This document shows, piece after piece, positions 7,081-34,604 of a stretch of DNA of 34,604 bases; positions within the stretch are counted from its first letter, which is position 1, and each line of letters starts with the position of its first letter. The stretch covers positions 1 through 34,604 of the forward strand of contig JACRGV010000011.1 in NCBI GenBank assembly GCA_016212215.1. The letters are read 5' to 3'. The notes under the pieces are model-generated. The model had not been told where the DNA came from, did not search any database, and saw nothing but the letters and a program-made list of their open reading frames with translations. The position numbers were made by a program, and so were the translations under genes. The stretch comes from Nitrospirota bacterium. Its GTDB lineage: Bacteria > Nitrospirota > 9FT-COMBO-42-15 > HDB-SIOI813.

Positions 7081-8241
7081 TTAATGCTTTAAGTACCACT
7101 CATAGGTCTTATTAATTCCATCCTTTAAGCTTATCTTTGGTTCCCATCCGAGTGATTTGATCTTTGATATGTCAAGGAGTTTTCGTGGAGTGCCGTCAGG
7201 CTTTGATAAGTCATGCTCTATCCTGCCGTCAAAACCAACAACATCTCTTATAATGCCGGCAAGTTCTTTTATCTTTATATCCTCTCCCATCCCTATATTA
7301 ACAAGCTCTCCTGTGTCTTTATAATCATAATTCTCCATCAGATAGACGCAGGCATCGGCGAGGTCATCAACATATAGGAACTCACGGTACGGTTCGCCGC
7401 TGCCCCATAAGACGACAGAATCCTTTGTGATGCCGAGGTGTTTAAGGATGTCTTCGATGAATTCAACCGAAAATAAACCCCATCCCCACCCCCCGATTAC
7501 TACTTCGGGGGCAGGCTCTAACCCTCCCCCATTAAGTATCGGGGAGGGAATAAACTTAGCACCCTCTCCCTCAGGGAGAGGGTCAGGGTGAGGGTGGGGT
7601 TTTCCAATCCCAAAACCAAGCGGATACGTCTTCATATCATTCATTAATCCCTCAATATCCCCATTCCTCAACAGCTTTGCAAGATGGAATTTTCTAATTA
7701 ATGCAGGCAGGACGTGTGATGTCTCGAGATTAAAATTATCTTGAGGGCCATAAAGGTTAGTGGGCATCACTGATAAATAGTTTGTCCCATATTGCTCATT
7801 GTAATACCTGCAAAGTTTTATGGCTGTAATCTTCGCAATTGCATAAGGTTCATTGGTTGATTCCAGAGGGCCTATAAGTAAATGCTCCTCTTTCAAAGGC
7901 TGAGGTGCAAGTTTAGGATATATACAGGATGAACCAAGGTTTAAAAGCTTACTCACCCCATTCTTATATGCGGCATTGATAACATTTAAGGCAATCGCCG
8001 TATTATCATAAATAAATTCCGCCTTATAAGTATTATTCGCAAGTATCCCTCCGACCTTAGCGGCTGAAAGATACATCTGCTCAGGCTTCTCCTCTTCAAA
8101 GAATGTCTCCGTATCAGCCTGATTTCTTAAGTCAAGCTCTTTACTCGTCCTGCAAACAATTTCAGTTCCATCCCTCTCATTCAATTTCCTGAGAATGGCA
8201 GAACCAACAAGACCCCTGTGTCCGGCAACATAAATCTTCAT
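7081..8241 (-). CDS. fcl: GDP-L-fucose synthase with in-frame repeat insert
   Basis: The enzyme is the NADPH-dependent epimerase/reductase that turns GDP-4-keto-6-deoxymannose into GDP-L-fucose. The extended-SDR features are all present: [15 protein letters not shown] (GxxGxxG), [10 protein letters not shown] with the catalytic Ser, [12 protein letters not shown] (YxxxK), [13 protein letters not shown], and [19 protein letters not shown]. The protein has 386 residues where the family usually has about 310-320. The excess is residues about 213-258 ([14 protein letters not shown]..., [12 protein letters not shown]), encoded by a module A repeat. It falls between the ALIRKFH helix and the WGSG strand, a surface-loop region in known family structures, so activity may survive; that is inference. 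AAAGGA lies 6 nt before ATG 8241. No GDP-mannose dehydratase gene is in the window. Confidence 0.9.
7466..7606. repeat. Long module A repeat inside fcl
   Basis: It starts with a boundary-like ATTCAACCGAAAAT, then CCCCATCCCCACCCCC, an inserted CCCCGAT...ATCGGGG inverted repeat around 7490-7545, the CCCTCTCCCTCAGGGAGAGGG hairpin, and ends GGGTGAGGGTGGGGTTTTCC. At about 141 bp it is longer than other A copies and remains open in the fcl frame. Confidence 0.93.
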
Positions 8242-10911: not shown

Positions 10912-11234
10912 TTCTTTTTCACACCTTTGAGTCTGGTCAGCGCTGATAAAAGTTCTTTTTTCTCCATTCCTAACATCTCCCAGTCCATAAAATCACTTTC
11001 TACTTCATAGCTGTGTTTGTCTTGTATCTTATCTTCATCCCAATTTCTTTCAAATTCATAAAATGGAAGCCCGTATTTCTCCTCAAATTTTAATATTTCG
11101 TTATTAAATTTCGCAAGCCTGCTCTCAATTGCAGAAAAAAGTATATCGTCTATCTTTTCCCTCAAGATAACTTCCCCAAAAGACTCTACAAGTGCATTAT
11201 ATAAATCTTTATCTATTTCCAATATATTAGGCAT
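10908..11234 (-). CDS. TumA-like antitoxin candidate
   Basis: A 108-residue, highly charged protein with predicted helices: LEIDKDLYNALVESFGEVIL, then FNNEILKFEEKYGLPFYEFE, then an acidic linker and HSYEVESDFMDWEMLGMEKK. The KYG-x-x-F-x-x-F and H-x-x-E-x-D-x-x-x-W pattern is that of small antitoxins found directly before DUF6516 toxins. The start is firm: GAGGAGGG sits 5 nt before ATG 11234. That ribosome binding site lies inside the 3' end of a broken PIN-domain gene, so the pair was apparently placed directly into, or next to, an older module. Function is inferred mainly from pairing. Confidence 0.55.
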   Translation of the reverse strand: MPNILEIDKDLYNALVESFGEVILREKIDDILFSAIESRLAKFNNEILKFEEKYGLPFYEFERNWDEDKIQDKHSYEVESDFMDWEMLGMEKKELLSALTRLKGVKKK

Positions 11235-14007: not shown

Positions 14008-15297
14008 TTACTTTATATCATCACTACTTCCTGAAAGACCGTCCGGGCCTTTGCTGTAAATACTGTAACCTTGCGGCAGTGGTTCAAAGACAAATTTATT
14101 ACCCCATGGGTCCGTTATAATATCTTCGCTAATGAAATGTTCTTGATAAAGCGATTCAAGGGATTCCGACAATTTACCGTTTGCCTTCTGATAAAATGTA
14201 ATTGCATTTCTCAGGGAGGTCATCTCATCTACTGCTGAGGATTTCTTTAATCTATCATAAGCTGAAGAATAATCCTTGATACCGGCAATCTCTCTAATTG
14301 AGAAAAATATAAAAATGGAACTAACAATAAATATCAATATAGCAATCTGAACAGCGGTCCAGATACGTCTCTTTTCATTTTTTTCTTCATGAAGGGGTAC
14401 GTCAAATCCCTCCGGCGGGGTTGGAAAACCCCGCCTATCCAGAGATATATTATGGATAGGTGGGACATTCTTGTCCCATCCATTTTCATCCACCTTTGTG
14501 AGCGCCCCGCTCATGTTCGATTCATCCGAAGATGAGCGCAGCTCACCCTCCCCTTGCGGGAGGAGGTTAAGGGGAGGAGTGGATGTTATCTCCTCTATAA
14601 GCCCCGCTACTTTTAATGCAGCTATGTTTTTGAAGACATCAAACTCTGTAAGATTTACAAGTTGTTTGATCATACGTATATCCCTCTGCCCGTCAATCAG
14701 ATTGAAGACACTCATCTCCTCCGGGGTTAAAGAGGAAAATAATGACTCTGCTTCTTCACCTTTTAATGATTGAGAAAAGATTATATTCTCTGATGAGATA
14801 TGGGATTCAATGTATGGCCATTCATCAAGCATCCGGATACCTTCCATAAGGATGAAATCAGTTGGAATCGGTATCTGATACTCCTTTTCATATTCAATCT
14901 CCTGTGCATCAAATTTATACCATCCGTTCTTCCATCTGAATGCCTGAAATATCACATCTTTTATCTGTATCTGTAAAACATCTTTCAGATCATCCTCTGA
15001 AATTGCACCGGAGGCCGTAAGTATGTGACCGATTTTTCCACCTGTATTCTGCTGAACAATAAGGGCATCTTCAAGCGCCTTTTCAGACAGCTTCCCTAAC
15101 CCTATAAGAAGCCTCCCGACCTTCTCATTCTCTCCCATTTTGGTTGATACAGCATAGACTATCTCTCCTACGGAGAAATTTATTGATGCAACAGCCTCAC
15201 CGTTTTGGATTGTGAGTACACCGCTCTTTTTCTGGAGGTTGATGAGCTGAAATATATCGGCAATGCCGAAGTCTTTTATAGAACCTTCTAATGCCAT
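14008..15297 (-). CDS. PATAN/DUF4388 protein with repeat insert and pseudopilin-like tail
   Basis: A 429-residue protein in three parts. Residues 1-~175 are a PATAN/DUF4388 module: MALEGSIKDFGIADIFQLIN, KSGVLTIQNG, and a helical part with VGRLLIGLGKLSEKALEDAL and KIGHILTASGAISEDDLKDV. A small helical region with FNLIDGQRDIRMIKQLVNLT (about 198-230) follows. After a membrane segment (IWTAVQIAILIFIVSSIFIF, about 309-330), the C-terminus resembles the GspG/pseudopilin end (DPWGNKFVFEPLPQGYSIYS, then SKGPDGLSGSSDDI). PATAN proteins occur in gliding and pilus-related signalling; the role here is unknown. Residues about 237-298 come from repeat modules, so the linker between soluble and membrane parts is repeat-made. 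It starts 3 bp after the plsY fusion. Confidence 0.82.
   Translation of the reverse strand: MALEGSIKDFGIADIFQLINLQKKSGVLTIQNGEAVASINFSVGEIVYAVSTKMGENEKVGRLLIGLGKLSEKALEDALIVQQNTGGKIGHILTASGAISEDDLKDVLQIQIKDVIFQAFRWKNGWYKFDAQEIEYEKEYQIPIPTDFILMEGIRMLDEWPYIESHISSENIIFSQSLKGEEAESLFSSLTPEEMSVFNLIDGQRDIRMIKQLVNLTEFDVFKNIAALKVAGLIEEITSTPPLNLLPQGEGELRSSSDESNMSGALTKVDENGWDKNVPPIHNISLDRRGFPTPPEGFDVPLHEEKNEKRRIWTAVQIAILIFIVSSIFIFFSIREIAGIKDYSSAYDRLKKSSAVDEMTSLRNAITFYQKANGKLSESLESLYQEHFISEDIITDPWGNKFVFEPLPQGYSIYSKGPDGLSGSSDDIK
14402..14588. repeat. B + C + A-like composite inside the PATAN gene
   Basis: Module B (about 14408-14484, CCGGCGGGGTTGG...CATTCTTGTCCCATCC), module C (14486-14533, stem TGAGC-gcccc-GCTCA, then TTCGATTCATCCGAA), then an A-like piece with GCTCACCCTCCCC and a CTCCCCTTGCGGGAG hairpin. 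About 62 codons are read through on the minus strand without a stop. Confidence 0.9.
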
Positions 15298-19891: not shown

Positions 19892-21050
<1,159 letters not shown>

Positions 21051-28953: not shown

Positions 28954-30294
28954 TCATTGATTTGTAAAAAACTTCAATATCTTCTGGAACTTCGGATGTC
29001 TGAGTTTACGCAATGCCTTAGCCTCTATCTGCCGGGTTCTCTCTCTTGAAACCTTCAACAGGTCTGCGATTTCATCTAATGAGTATGTCCTGCTGCCGCC
29101 GATGCCGTAGCGCATCCTTAATACATCTGCCTCTTTGTCTGATAAATCCGACAGCGCCTGCTTCATTTGTTCATTAAGTTCATTCCCTTCAACCTCATCA
29201 TGAGGGGCTGCGGCAGTTGTATCCTCAATAAAATCTATCAGCATTGTATCTTCTTCACTGCCTACCATGGCATCGAGAGACACCGTATACAGATCTATAT
29301 TCAGTAACTCATCTATCTTTTCAACCGGGATTTTTATTATCTCAGCCAATTCTTCTTTCTCAGGTTCTCTCCCGTTTGCCTGAATAAAGTGATATGAAGT
29401 ACGCATAATCTGATTGAGAGTATCTATTATATGCTGAGGGATCCGGATGGTCCTTGTCTGGTCCGTAATTGAACGTGAAACTGCCTGACGTATCCACCAT
29501 GTTGCGTAAGTAGAAAACCTGTAACCCCTCTGATACTCAAACCTCTCAACTGCACGCATCAGGCCGATATTACCCTCCTGTATAAGGTCCGACAAAGGAA
29601 GTCCCCTGTTCATGTATTTTCTCGCAATACTCACTACAAGCCTTAGATTAGACTTCACAAGCATGTCTTTGGCATCTTCAACATCTATGTTTATTAAATT
29701 TATATTCTTTAAAATGCTATCAGTGTTACTTAGCTTCGCAATAACTGTCTCACAAAGGTTTGTCTCTTTATCTATTTCAACGAGCAGGGTTATTAATCGT
29801 TCGTCATCACCCGAAAACACCCCCCCAAGCCCCCCCTTAAACAAAGGGGGGGGATTCCCGTTTTCATTTGTGAGATACCGTCTCATTAGTGGTTCATTAC
29901 AAATACCCACTGCCTCCTCTATCTTTCGAATTAATCTTTTAAGTTCATCTTCACTTTCAATAAGGATCCCTTCATCATCAAAATTCACCAACTTTGTGGT
30001 ATTCTTTTTTTCCTTTTCTATAATACGTTGCTTTAAATCTTTCAGTTCATCAATTATTTTACCGGATTTTAATAATTCATTTACAACAGCAGACTTCCCC
30101 TTTTCTATTCTCTTAGCAAGCCTTACTTCATCCTCCCTTGAAAGGAGTGAGGCAGAGCGTATCTCTTTGAGATAGGCATTTACAGGCTCAGACGGCGGGG
30201 CAGACGGCACACCCTTCCCTTCTCTGGACTTATTCGTATCATCAATAAGTTCTTCTTCAGGAGATAGTTCAATGTGCCTTTTCACATTTTTCAT
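28954..30294 (-). CDS. rpoD: RpoD-type sigma factor with repeat insert
   Basis: A 446-residue sigma-70. Region 1.2 is [21 protein letters not shown] non-conserved region (about 70-205) follows. Region 2 is [40 protein letters not shown], then [20 protein letters not shown] (2.3-2.4). Region 3 begins [16 protein letters not shown]. Region 4 has [20 protein letters not shown] and [20 protein letters not shown]. Region 4.2 is of the primary-sigma type, but region 1.1 is missing and the protein is short, so it may be a second RpoD-like factor and not the housekeeping one. Residues about 145-163 ([20 protein letters not shown]) are repeat-encoded and fall in the non-conserved region, away from promoter-contact surfaces. 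AAGG lies 7 nt before ATG 30294. Confidence 0.88.
29805..29857. repeat. Module D repeat inside the sigma-factor gene
   Basis: Boundary-like TCATCACCCGAAAA, then CCCCCCCAAGCCCCCCCTTA paired with the AAGGGGGGGG run. It is read on the minus strand as [19 protein letters not shown]. The same sequence class occurs at 21013-21048. Confidence 0.88.
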
Positions 30295-30555: not shown

Positions 30556-33500
30556 ATGGAGTTATCTGATAATAAAATCCTGAAATGCCTTAAAGAGCTT
30601 CCGGCAAATAATATTTATTATATTAGCCCGAGACAATATTTTCTCAGGGGATACGAATATTACAGAGACAGGCGGGTATCCGATTTTGTATGGTCGGGCG
30701 ATAAAAACCTTCTCACAGCAAAGGTTGTCGGAAATAACATCTACTCCGTTATTTTCTTTGATATTAATGAAACACTGAAATATAAATGTGATTGCCCTTC
30801 ATGGTCCCAATCCAATCATTGCAAACATGTAATATGTGCATTACTCACCATAAAGAATACTATTAACCCTGAATTATTTGCTATGTCGGACCGCTATGAC
30901 CGGGATGCCTACAGGGATAAACTCAAAGCCATCCTTTTTTCAACGAATGATTCTGCCAATTCTATTATTACTAATGATGATTTGTCTTTTGAATATGACC
31001 TTGTCCTTGAACAAGAGATTTTTGTCAGAGCATTGAAAATCAATATCGAGAAAGACGGACGGCCTGTTGCAAGGAATCTATTTTACCGTCTGCCTGAGGA
31101 GATTCGTAATCTAATTAAATTCGATGCCTATTATTATCATGACATAGAAAATGATGTAATAACTTTTCTCCAAAAGAATAAGAATTTACCCCCACTTTTT
31201 ATTAAATCAGAGAATAAAAATATACCTCTAAAATGGGATAAAACACTGCGGTTTAACTCTAAAACTGAGTTAGATGTAACAGGAAATTCAGTCTCCATAA
31301 AGAAAATTGCAATATCCAACAGTGATACCTGCTCTGATATACGTATGTTAGGAAACAATTTAATAGCTGATCTTGAATCAGGCAGGCTGGGTATTCTTAA
31401 AGGTCATGATGGATGGGGGGTCTCATACTTTTTTGAGAAAATTATTGACGAGATGGATTATACCCGTATAGACCAAATCACTGCCGGAAATATAAATAAA
31501 TTAAAGAGTATTTATGGTAATGCAAATTACAATCGTGTGATGCCTCTTGAGCTGTTTAATGATATCCATCTTATGATACATGATGATAAAGCTGTACTTA
31601 AAGACCTCACACTGAAAGTCAATCATATTGTCTCAGAGGTAGAAACACCAATCCCTTCTTACAGTATGATTATCGAACCGATACACAAGGCCTCTAATAA
31701 TATGATCTTAAAGGCATGTTGTAATTATTCAGGTAATATAGATTCAACTTCAGGATTATTTTTTTCCTTTCTGACCACTGCAACAAAAGGGTTAAACATT
31801 TCTCACTCTTTAAAGGTGCGTAAAAGGTGGTCTGTACTGGTTAAAACGTTTTTTGAACTACTTACCGCTGAGACTAAGAATGAGGCACAGAAGATTATAA
31901 GGGAGTCACTTTCTGAAGGAGATTTTTTAAAGCGCAAGGTCAGGCAGGAGGCCAAAGACCTTCTGATGGAGGCATATTCAAGGCTCAATACCAAATCATC
32001 TTTACTCCGTTTTACCGGAGGGAAGTGGAATCTGATCAGGAATAATAAGCCTGCAGAGTCATTACTATACACAATCCCTTATCAAATATTCGGGATGGAT
32101 GTCTTTCTCAACATGCACACTCACAATGAGATTATTATGGATTCTAAGAAGATATACAGCAGTCTCCCGCTGCTCAGCCGGAGACTAAAAGAACATGGAA
32201 TTCCTTTATTTTTTAAGGGTAAATCTGTTGTCACATCCAAATGGGATTTTTCATTTGATGCAAGCAGGAGTATGGGTATTGACTGGTTTGAGATTAAACC
32301 GGAGATTAAATGCGACGGCAGGTTAATTGATGATGACAAATGGGAACAGATTTTATCTCAGGATGGTGTAGTAGAGGATGGTGATGTAATCCAGATACTT
32401 GATTCTGATTCCCGTGAAATTCTCAAAACCATTTCATCCATGTATCAATCTCAGGATAAAAAGTCTTCAGGTGATAAACGTGAAAAAGAGATTGTCCGGA
32501 TACCGAGGCTCAGGATCCTTGACTGGATATATTTAAGAAATGCAGGGGTTAAGGTTAAACTTTCAGAAGAGGATGAAGAGCTGTTTGCAAGGCTGAATGC
32601 TTTTGAAAAGATTGAGAAGAGGCCCTTGCCTGATAAGTTAAATGCGAAATTAAGGCACTATCAAAAGGATGGTTATTACTGGCTTGCATTCCTTTATGAG
32701 CATCAGTTCGGTGCATGCCTTGCTGATGATATGGGGCTTGGAAAGACATTGCAGGCCATCACCCTTCTTGCAGGAATAAAGGAAGGAACTGTCAATGTTT
32801 CAAAGGAGTATATTAATCTGCCTCATCTATTAGTATTACCGCCGAGCCTTTTATTTAATTGGGAAAATGAGATAAACCGCTTTTATCCTGAATTAAAGAT
32901 TCATGCCTATACAGGTAAAGAACGGAGTACGGATTTTAAAGGGTGTGACATCGTACTAACAACTTACGGCCTTATCCGCAGGGATATTGAGACCTTAAAA
33001 AAAGAAACATTCAACGTCATTGTCTTTGATGAGGCTCAGACCGTTAAGAATATATATGCAGATACAACCGGCGCTGTAAGACACTTAAACGGTTTTTTCA
33101 AGCTGACAATGACCGGCACACCTGTTGAAAATCACCTTGGAGAATATTACTCCATACTTGACCTTGCTGTCCCAGGATTGCTTGGTGATTATGACAACTT
33201 CAAATCCTATATTAAAACAGAGACAACCCCTTATGTTGACATGATCCTTAGAAGGACAAGACCATTTGTTCTAAGGAGGACAAAGGAGAAGATACTAAAA
33301 GAGCTTCCGCCTAAAATAGAATCCGACATCTATCTTGAACTTACTGATAAACAGAAGGCGCTCTATAAAAGGACCGTTGATAGTGTGCGGATGACGATTG
33401 CAGATGCATACAAGAACAAGACAGCATCTCAGGCACAGATTATCGCCATCACTGCCATATTAAAGCTGAGACAGATTTGCGTATCTCCAAAACTTATTGA

Positions 33501-34044
33501 CCCTTTACATGAAGACACATCACCCAAGATCGAGTTCCTGATAACAAAATTAAATGAACTCCTCAGCGAAGGACACAGCGCCCTTGTGTTCTCCCAGTTC
33601 ACGAGTTTTCTTGACATCCTTGAAATGGACCTGAAAAAACATGCTATTTCCTTTACAAGGCTTGACGGAAAAACTGCTGTCGGAAAAAGAAAACAGCTTG
33701 TTGAGGGATTTCAAATGGGAGCAAATGCCTCAATATTTCTACTGAGCCTGAAGGCAGGAGGTCAGGGGCTAAACCTTACAAGGGCATCTTATGTATTTCA
33801 CCTTGACCCATGGTGGAACCCTGCTGTAGAAAACCAGGCATCAGACAGGGCACACAGGATTGGCCAGACAAACAAGGTAACCATAACACGTATACTCATG
33901 AGGCACACAGTTGAAGAGAAGATGATGGAGTTAAAGAAAAAGAAACTTGCATTATACAATGCAGTAATGGGAGAATCCGCCGGCAGTAAGCAAGGACTGT
34001 CTGTGTCAAAGGCAGACTTTGATTATTTGATAGAGAATGCATAG
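30556..34044 (+). CDS. SWIM zinc finger - SNF2 family helicase
   Basis: A 1162-residue ATP-dependent DNA translocase. An N-terminal SWIM finger has ligands C78, C80, C89 and H91 (YKCDCPSWSQSNHCKH). A long middle part (about 130-680) corresponds to the bacterial SNF2-associated region. The motor follows: Q/I region NAKLRHYQKDGYYWLAFLYE, Walker A CLADDMGLGKTLQAITLLAG (about 716-735), LLVLPPSLLFNWENEI, DEAQ box VIVFDEAQTVKN (about 822), LTMTGTPVENHLGEYYSILD, LRRTKEKILKELPPK, then RecA2 with LVFSQFTSFLDILEMDLKKH, LLSLKAGGQGLNLTRASYVF, HLDPWWNPAVENQASDRAHR and IGQTNKVTITRILM. All motifs look intact. Family members remodel nucleoprotein or displace RNA polymerase; the precise role is unknown. No strong ribosome binding site precedes ATG 30556. 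No repeat insert is present. Confidence 0.95.
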   Translation: MELSDNKILKCLKELPANNIYYISPRQYFLRGYEYYRDRRVSDFVWSGDKNLLTAKVVGNNIYSVIFFDINETLKYKCDCPSWSQSNHCKHVICALLTIKNTINPELFAMSDRYDRDAYRDKLKAILFSTNDSANSIITNDDLSFEYDLVLEQEIFVRALKINIEKDGRPVARNLFYRLPEEIRNLIKFDAYYYHDIENDVITFLQKNKNLPPLFIKSENKNIPLKWDKTLRFNSKTELDVTGNSVSIKKIAISNSDTCSDIRMLGNNLIADLESGRLGILKGHDGWGVSYFFEKIIDEMDYTRIDQITAGNINKLKSIYGNANYNRVMPLELFNDIHLMIHDDKAVLKDLTLKVNHIVSEVETPIPSYSMIIEPIHKASNNMILKACCNYSGNIDSTSGLFFSFLTTATKGLNISHSLKVRKRWSVLVKTFFELLTAETKNEAQKIIRESLSEGDFLKRKVRQEAKDLLMEAYSRLNTKSSLLRFTGGKWNLIRNNKPAESLLYTIPYQIFGMDVFLNMHTHNEIIMDSKKIYSSLPLLSRRLKEHGIPLFFKGKSVVTSKWDFSFDASRSMGIDWFEIKPEIKCDGRLIDDDKWEQILSQDGVVEDGDVIQILDSDSREILKTISSMYQSQDKKSSGDKREKEIVRIPRLRILDWIYLRNAGVKVKLSEEDEELFARLNAFEKIEKRPLPDKLNAKLRHYQKDGYYWLAFLYEHQFGACLADDMGLGKTLQAITLLAGIKEGTVNVSKEYINLPHLLVLPPSLLFNWENEINRFYPELKIHAYTGKERSTDFKGCDIVLTTYGLIRRDIETLKKETFNVIVFDEAQTVKNIYADTTGAVRHLNGFFKLTMTGTPVENHLGEYYSILDLAVPGLLGDYDNFKSYIKTETTPYVDMILRRTRPFVLRRTKEKILKELPPKIESDIYLELTDKQKALYKRTVDSVRMTIADAYKNKTASQAQIIAITAILKLRQICVSPKLIDPLHEDTSPKIEFLITKLNELLSEGHSALVFSQFTSFLDILEMDLKKHAISFTRLDGKTAVGKRKQLVEGFQMGANASIFLLSLKAGGQGLNLTRASYVFHLDPWWNPAVENQASDRAHRIGQTNKVTITRILMRHTVEEKMMELKKKKLALYNAVMGESAGSKQGLSVSKADFDYLIENA

Positions 34045-34239: not shown

Positions 34240-34604
34240 ATGCAGACATGGCGGCTGATAAATACCGGTTCTAATAACGGCTACTATAATATGGCGGTTG
34301 ATGAGGCGATTGTTATTGCCTGCAGGGAAGGGGTTGTCCCGCCGACTCTAAGATTCTATACGTGGGATCCTCCTTGCGTATCCATTGGATACTTTCAGAA
34401 GATTGATAGTTCATCCGAAAATCCCTTCCGGCGGGGTAAGAAAACCCCGCCTATCCATTTCTTCGAGGATAGGCGGGACTTTCTTGTCCCGCTGATTTTC
34501 ATGGCCCTTTGTGAACCCTCGGTTCATGGGAGTTCATCCGAAAATCAACCCCATCCCCACCCTACCCCTCCCCTTGAAGGGGAGGGAATCAACGTAGCCC
34601 CCTC
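34240..34604 (+). CDS. Lipoate-protein ligase A-like, 5' part with composite insert
   Basis: The frame opens at ATG 34240 and stays open to the right edge (121 codons). The first 56 residues are the typical start of the LplA/LipM BPL-fold family that attaches lipoyl or octanoyl groups: MQTWRLINTGSNNGYYNMAV, DEAIVIACREGVVPPTLRFY and TWDPPCVSIGYFQKID. The family would then continue with its catalytic domain. Instead, from residue 57 the frame enters a B-C-A composite and reads [20 protein letters not shown] and onward to QPHPHPTPPLEGEGINV, still without a stop. Whether the rest of the enzyme resumes beyond the window cannot be seen. Every other intragenic copy in the window preserves the frame, so a functional long-insert protein is possible. 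It could equally be a disrupted gene. Confidence 0.75.
   Translation, partial: MQTWRLINTGSNNGYYNMAVDEAIVIACREGVVPPTLRFYTWDPPCVSIGYFQKIDSSSENPFRRGKKTPPIHFFEDRRDFLVPLIFMALCEPSVHGSSSENQPHPHPTPPLEGEGINVAP
34409..34604. repeat. B-C-A composite inside the lplA-like gene
   Basis: Boundary TTCATCCGAAAATC (34410-34423), B (34424-34497), C with stem TGAACC-ctc-GGTTCA (34500-34533), boundary TTCATCCGAAAATC (34533-34546), then the first half of A (34549-34604), cut by the window edge. The order matches the composite at 20724-20964. Confidence 0.93.

Follow-up and report, generated by a model that had tools for sequence, protein, structure and literature searches.

The interrupted gene at the contig end

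The window, meaning the whole stretch of DNA analyzed (34,604 nucleotides), ends where its contig C11 ends, the contig being exactly 34604 bases long. Its last features (Table 1) are an SNF2-family helicase gene, the N-terminus of an LplA/LipM-type gene (here lplA) and a composite of palindromic repeat modules called B, C, and A. The initial annotation had an LplA/LipM N-terminus running straight into a forward B-C-A composite without an in-frame stop, and this was confirmed: from the ATG at 34240 to base 34604 no stop occurs, and translation yields 56 LplA/LipM-type residues followed by 65 repeat-encoded residues. The junction lies at 34409/34410, the repeat beginning exactly at 34410 with TTCATCCGAAAATC, a left edge common to about 45 other copies in the genome, and 195 bp of repeat are visible beyond it up to the contig end.

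Table 1. Features of the window that bear on the interrupted lplA gene
Feature	Position	Strand	Basis or remark
SNF2-family helicase gene, directly 5' of lplA	30556..34044	+	Gene order as in G001
LplA/LipM-type gene N-terminus, 56 codons plus 2 bases of codon 57	34240..34409	+	Pfam match, G001 ortholog
TTCATCCGAAAATC, 14-bp constant left edge of the repeat unit	34410..34423	+	Recurs at 34533; about 45 copies
B core, long near-perfect hairpin GGCGGGG...CCCGC, inner CGCCTATCC/GGATAGGCG	34431..34492	+	DNA fold
C module TTTTCATGGCCCTTTGTGAACCCTCGGTTCATGGGA, small hairpin	34496..34532	+	
Second TTCATCCGAAAATC edge and first part of the A module (hairpin 34565-34586), ended by the contig end	34533..34604	+	
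Stretch of 141 bases shared exactly with the end of contig C152 (proB)	34464..34604	+	Copy comparison
Second B-C-A copy of the window, intergenic, two TAA in the corresponding frame	20724..20927	+	
Opposite-orientation B core WDKNVPPIHNISLDRRGFPTPPEGF, in frame in a DUF4388 gene (14008-15297)	14401..14490	-	

The lplA N-terminus scores above the gathering cut-off of the Pfam family LplA-B_cat (PF21948; 27.8 bits against 27, E 3e-6), with a match that covers only profile positions 2-44 of 200. It shares 52 of 56 residues (93% amino acid identity) with its ortholog in G001 (Nitrospirae bacterium isolate nzgw273), an intact LplA of 255 residues. G001 is a sister species of the same genus, and its protein lies 3' of the corresponding SNF2 helicase gene and is without the insert. 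Over these 56 codons dN/dS is about 0.02, with dS near saturation, and lplA has thus been under strong purifying selection during most of the time since the divergence from G001.

Intact relatives carry the motifs RRITGGRAV, CF, and GKKLIGSAQRR in a single domain, and the Cys of CF and the Lys of GKK are invariant across seven relatives. RRxTGGRAV and GKKLxGSAQ, which all seven have, were absent from the window and from every readable contig of this genome, so that the likeness to the LipM/LplA/LipB family (PF21948) lies here in the N-terminus and the further motifs are seen in G001. No NCBIfam equivalog cut-off was reached by the lplA-type gene. LipM is a single-domain member of the LplA/LipB fold with octanoyltransferase activity (PMC6067878). 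In the lplA-type protein, the single domain and the invariant Cys fit a LipM-like octanoyltransferase no less well than a ligase, and the gene, annotated as lipoate ligase-like, should on its sequence be read as LplA/LipM type, with the activity left unsettled.

The segment from GYFQ to VVRRITGG varies by about 8 residues in length among close relatives. AlphaFold models the G001 protein (mean pLDDT 84.8) with a loop at residues 50-69, flanked by strands 46-49 and 70-73; within this insertion-site loop, pLDDT falls below 50 at residues 60-66. The repeat insertion at lplA is real and is placed in this variable, disordered loop. A tolerated insert would be physically plausible, because the loop is variable in length and poorly modeled. 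The LplA-type protein of G002, from another genus (L041 / L094), has an in-frame repeat-like PHSALRTPHSTLNPPHSALRTQHY insert in a different loop.

Structure of the composite and its open frame

The repeat is a palindromic unit with many dispersed copies, there being at least 150 B matches in this genome. At the threshold used, five B matches were found in the sister genome G001 and none in nine more distant genomes, counts that are to be read with G001 being only 78% complete and with contigs below 3 kb possibly unreadable in all genomes. The edge-to-edge unit at 34410-34532 measures 123 nt, which is 41 codons, and the single-stranded DNA fold of 34410-34604 has a predicted energy of -43.9 kcal/mol (z = -5.65).

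Over the matched length, 20 of 45 copies leave the reading frame used by lplA open, against 0-4 of 45 for each of the other five frames, and when the B core is taken by itself the figure is 53 of 84; nearly all of the copies counted for openness lie outside genes. Averaged over the three frames of the lplA orientation, about 0.19 of random insertion points would be open, so the open frame at lplA does not exceed what is expected by chance. Many copies run on into SPSGRGLG* or similar stops, and the full arrays on L076 and L083 stay open well beyond the composite. The open frame at lplA is therefore weak evidence, as openness is intrinsic to the repeat, and the absence of an in-frame stop should be read with this caution wherever a repeat is itself open. 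By our estimate, a random disruptive insertion would be both open in frame and in the loop in only a few percent of cases, which speaks against a disruption. The insertion into lplA itself is not due to chance.

Contig ends at repeats

The copies on C11 and C152 differ only at 34457 and 34463, and both contigs end at the same repeat base. Since the last 141 bases of C11 are shared with C152, its end is an assembly-graph branch and not a biological end. Exact 141-base overlaps were seen in six pairs among the sampled contig edges, and 141 is probably the word length of the assembler. We take the lplA junction to be real: it is 195 bases away from the contig end, ahead of the copy-specific bases, and coincides exactly with the constant left edge.

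A closed two-in/two-out node made of the C11 and C152 ends and the C162 and C115 starts (shared G variant, 56-61 bp overlaps) was rejected; among 188 contig edges sampled, the best partner of C162 was C72 (141 bp) and that of C115 was C116 (123 bp). On C152, proB (L043, about 10990-11033) has a likely ATG inside the repeat left edge CGGATGAA, and its start codon may thus come from the element.

At least 18 of the 164 contigs have a B copy within 300 bp of their start, where about 2.5 would be expected by chance, and gene-loss calls in this genome therefore need care. Repeats are a main cause of its fragmentation.

The missing C-terminal half

The C-terminal 185 residues of the G001 protein, used as a query, matched nothing in the readable contigs of this genome at E values up to 10; the same query found an ortholog in G001, G002, G003, G004, G006, G007, and G009 (E 1e-36 to 1e-125). 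This search covers readable contigs, those below 3 kb being read as N (nine of nine in the stretches fetched), and a short contig carrying the 3' half of lplA could exist unseen.

The gene that follows lplA in G001 encodes a nucleotide-sugar dehydrogenase, whose counterpart here is 85% identical and lies on contig C2. Repeat-rich sequence comes next on C2, then a BTAD-type regulator and another array before the contig ends, and no lplA remnant is recognizable beside the dehydrogenase gene. In the ancestral order, the ends of C11 and C2 would be opposite one another; each is a repeat break, and the tail of C2 coincides with an edge of C58.

The expectation that the frame would return to LplA sequence beyond the repeat is accordingly neither supported nor refuted, the C-terminal half being in no readable contig here and in seven of seven relatives. 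A second intact lplA had been proposed as refuting evidence. The one candidate found, on contig C9, is LipB-like and adjoins pyruvate dehydrogenase genes, and of the seven relatives with the lplA-type gene, six have a LipB-like match as well; the C9 gene was rejected as a replacement lplA and refutes nothing. C93 was likewise rejected as the missing half, as it falls below the family cut-off and an equivalent weak match exists in relatives. The pyruvate dehydrogenase E2 gene (L044, 2446-3786) has the repeat-like peptides PPPLNPLPRGEG... and PSPLTGEGQGGG in the linker after its lipoyl domain.

Composites elsewhere and the kdpB case

No other composite was found inside a long ORF with both flanks among about 54 inspected (about 45 in a first set and 9 in 80 unselected contigs). 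The only parallel to lplA is kdpB on C22 (L155, minus strand), the N-terminus of which enters the same forward composite after about 124 codons. The gene is recognized over profile positions 2-112 of 675, and its frame continues for 107 array codons to an in-frame TAG inside the array. With none of these other composites in an ORF interior and kdpB stopping in its array, the suggestion that whole composites insert into genes as a unit has gained no support and has not been refuted either.

The interruption of kdpB comes directly after kdpA-side sequence (L155). A 126 bp overlap between C22 and C144 was rejected as proof that a liv-type ABC gene follows kdpB, since C123 has the same 126 bp; the in-frame stop is independent of this overlap.

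Single B cores in the opposite orientation

Read in the opposite orientation, the B core encodes a conserved peptide of about 31 residues, DKNVPPI…DRRGF.TPPEGF. Reverse-frame B was found in stop-free frames of at least 250 aa for 29 of the 150 matches listed, some of which may be N-terminal extensions and not internal inserts, against 3 of 150 in forward frame, located in two ORFs (Fisher p about 1e-7). A domain-flanked forward insertion was shown in neither of those two ORFs. A forward B in a long ORF on C21 was rejected as a gene insert, the array preceding the signal-peptide-like start of a cytochrome gene, and one on C29 was not counted as domain-flanked because its ORF has no family match. 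The 80 unselected contigs (44 copies) gave 3 reverse and no forward cases, the same direction in numbers too small to test.

In PolA the B peptide occupies residues 441-471, between Pfam matches that end at 430 and start at 531. Opposite-orientation B also lies between Pfam domains of ValRS, MutL, and a P-type ATPase and within the single domain match of NadD, so that in-frame inserts with both gene halves present, as known from Rickettsia palindromic elements (RPE), occur here at the level of the family. That repeat modules stand in frame inside genes of this genome had been claimed from the window and holds far more widely. Where single modules are concerned, these repeats do form a genuine coding-insertion family.

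Core genes in which the peptide was observed include those for PolA, ValRS, MutL, DnaX, NadD, a histidine kinase, a P-type ATPase, and PolB (L122, L124, L130, L133, L134, L135, L072, and L043). Within the window, a primary-sigma-factor-like gene (28954-30294) has an 18-residue segment resembling another in-frame repeat module, and a GDP-fucose-synthase-like epimerase and a glycosyltransferase (7081-8241 and 620-1903) carry in-frame A-type module peptides.

Disruption, tolerated insertion, or assembly effect

We favor a disruption of lplA, because the 3' half is missing, the orientation and size of the insert are unusual, and kdpB offers a precedent, all weighed against the loop position and the open frame. 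A forward palindromic array, consisting of a B-C unit and an A module, became joined to the gene after codon 56, in the loop of variable length that separates the GYFQ strand from the RRITGG motif, and in our view marks a disruption or rearrangement breakpoint and not a tolerated coding insertion. Translation would then run through a few dozen repeat codons to a stop within the array, so that only a truncated remnant without function would be left, and the LipB homologue on C9 could do the lipoylation instead. Coding insertions tolerated in this genome are for the most part lone modules, B being read in the opposite direction. We hold the chances that lplA is truncated or disrupted to be about even, which is somewhat likelier than an intact fusion; this weighting of disruption, fusion, and assembly effect is a judgement and not a computation.

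The principal competing reading, to which we give a smaller but appreciable chance, is a tolerated in-frame insert of at least 65 residues in the disordered loop of an active enzyme, with the 3' half on a short contig, unbinned or unread, that lies between two arrays. It is consistent with the frame staying open to the contig end, although such openness is intrinsic to the element, and with a loop that differs by about 8 residues among close relatives and is poorly modeled. Many other genes here carry in-frame modules, the G002 LplA has its PHSALRTPHSTLNPPHSALRTQHY insert in another loop, and some full arrays (L076, L083) are open well past the composite, but no other composite lies within a gene that retains both halves, domain-flanked B insertions have no precedent in forward orientation, and kdpB stops in its array. 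The contigs below 3 kb read as N could hold the 3' half, and the facing ends of C11 and C2 both break at repeats. That the whole composite is translated within a working LplA/LipM enzyme as an insert of at least 65 residues seems rather doubtful.

Misassembly or a mixture of strains, in which the lplA flank was joined to a non-neighboring array copy or the array form is a minority variant, appears improbable. The excess of contig starts with a B copy within 300 bp (at least 18 against about 2.5), the 141 terminal bases common to C11 and C152, and the long exact repeat overlaps shared by several contig edges are compatible with it. However, chimeras normally switch inside a repeat and not at its edge, whereas here the junction coincides exactly with the element's constant left edge, 195 bp in from the contig end, and the C11 copy differs from that of C152 at 34457 and 34463, after the junction, which places the joint in contig-specific sequence.

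Relation to known elements and significance

Rickettsia palindromic elements are protein-coding palindromes that occur between genes and also, in frame, within unrelated ones (PMC10969869; see also the RPE work of Ogata et al. 2002 as cited in PMC2635572). By description, not by sequence, the repeats studied here are like RPE in being dispersed palindromic units of about 100-150 bp with a preferred open frame and a recognizable peptide. They differ in that the host belongs to the Nitrospirota and not to the Rickettsiales, that they are chained in modules (B-C-A, B-B) with a 14-bp edge repeat, that the tolerated B insertions are read from the strand opposite to the lplA case, and that at least 150 copies occur in one genome. 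The enterobacterial ERIC-type repeat units RU-1/2/3 are small mobile-looking repeats with ORFs that lie between and inside genes (PMC2759123). These and MITE-like elements are similar, again by description only, in being mobile-looking, ORF-bearing, and both intergenic and intragenic; the lplA array is known from its left junction, the right junction, where a target-site duplication would be seen, being missing.

If a working fusion were true, multi-module palindromic arrays, and not only single modules, could be inserted into a conserved gene in a single step and leave it working. Taken alone, the lplA locus amounts to a gene interrupted where the assembly breaks, and its value is the contrast of orientation that it exposes, the opposite-orientation B peptide in core genes being the more interesting finding. 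A single B core in one direction is tolerated in frame in core genes of a Nitrospirota lineage, whereas the multi-module composite in the other direction is almost only intergenic and the one clear gene that it entered, kdpB, was cut short. This contrast of orientation and module number provides a testable rule on which mobile repeats can become parts of proteins.
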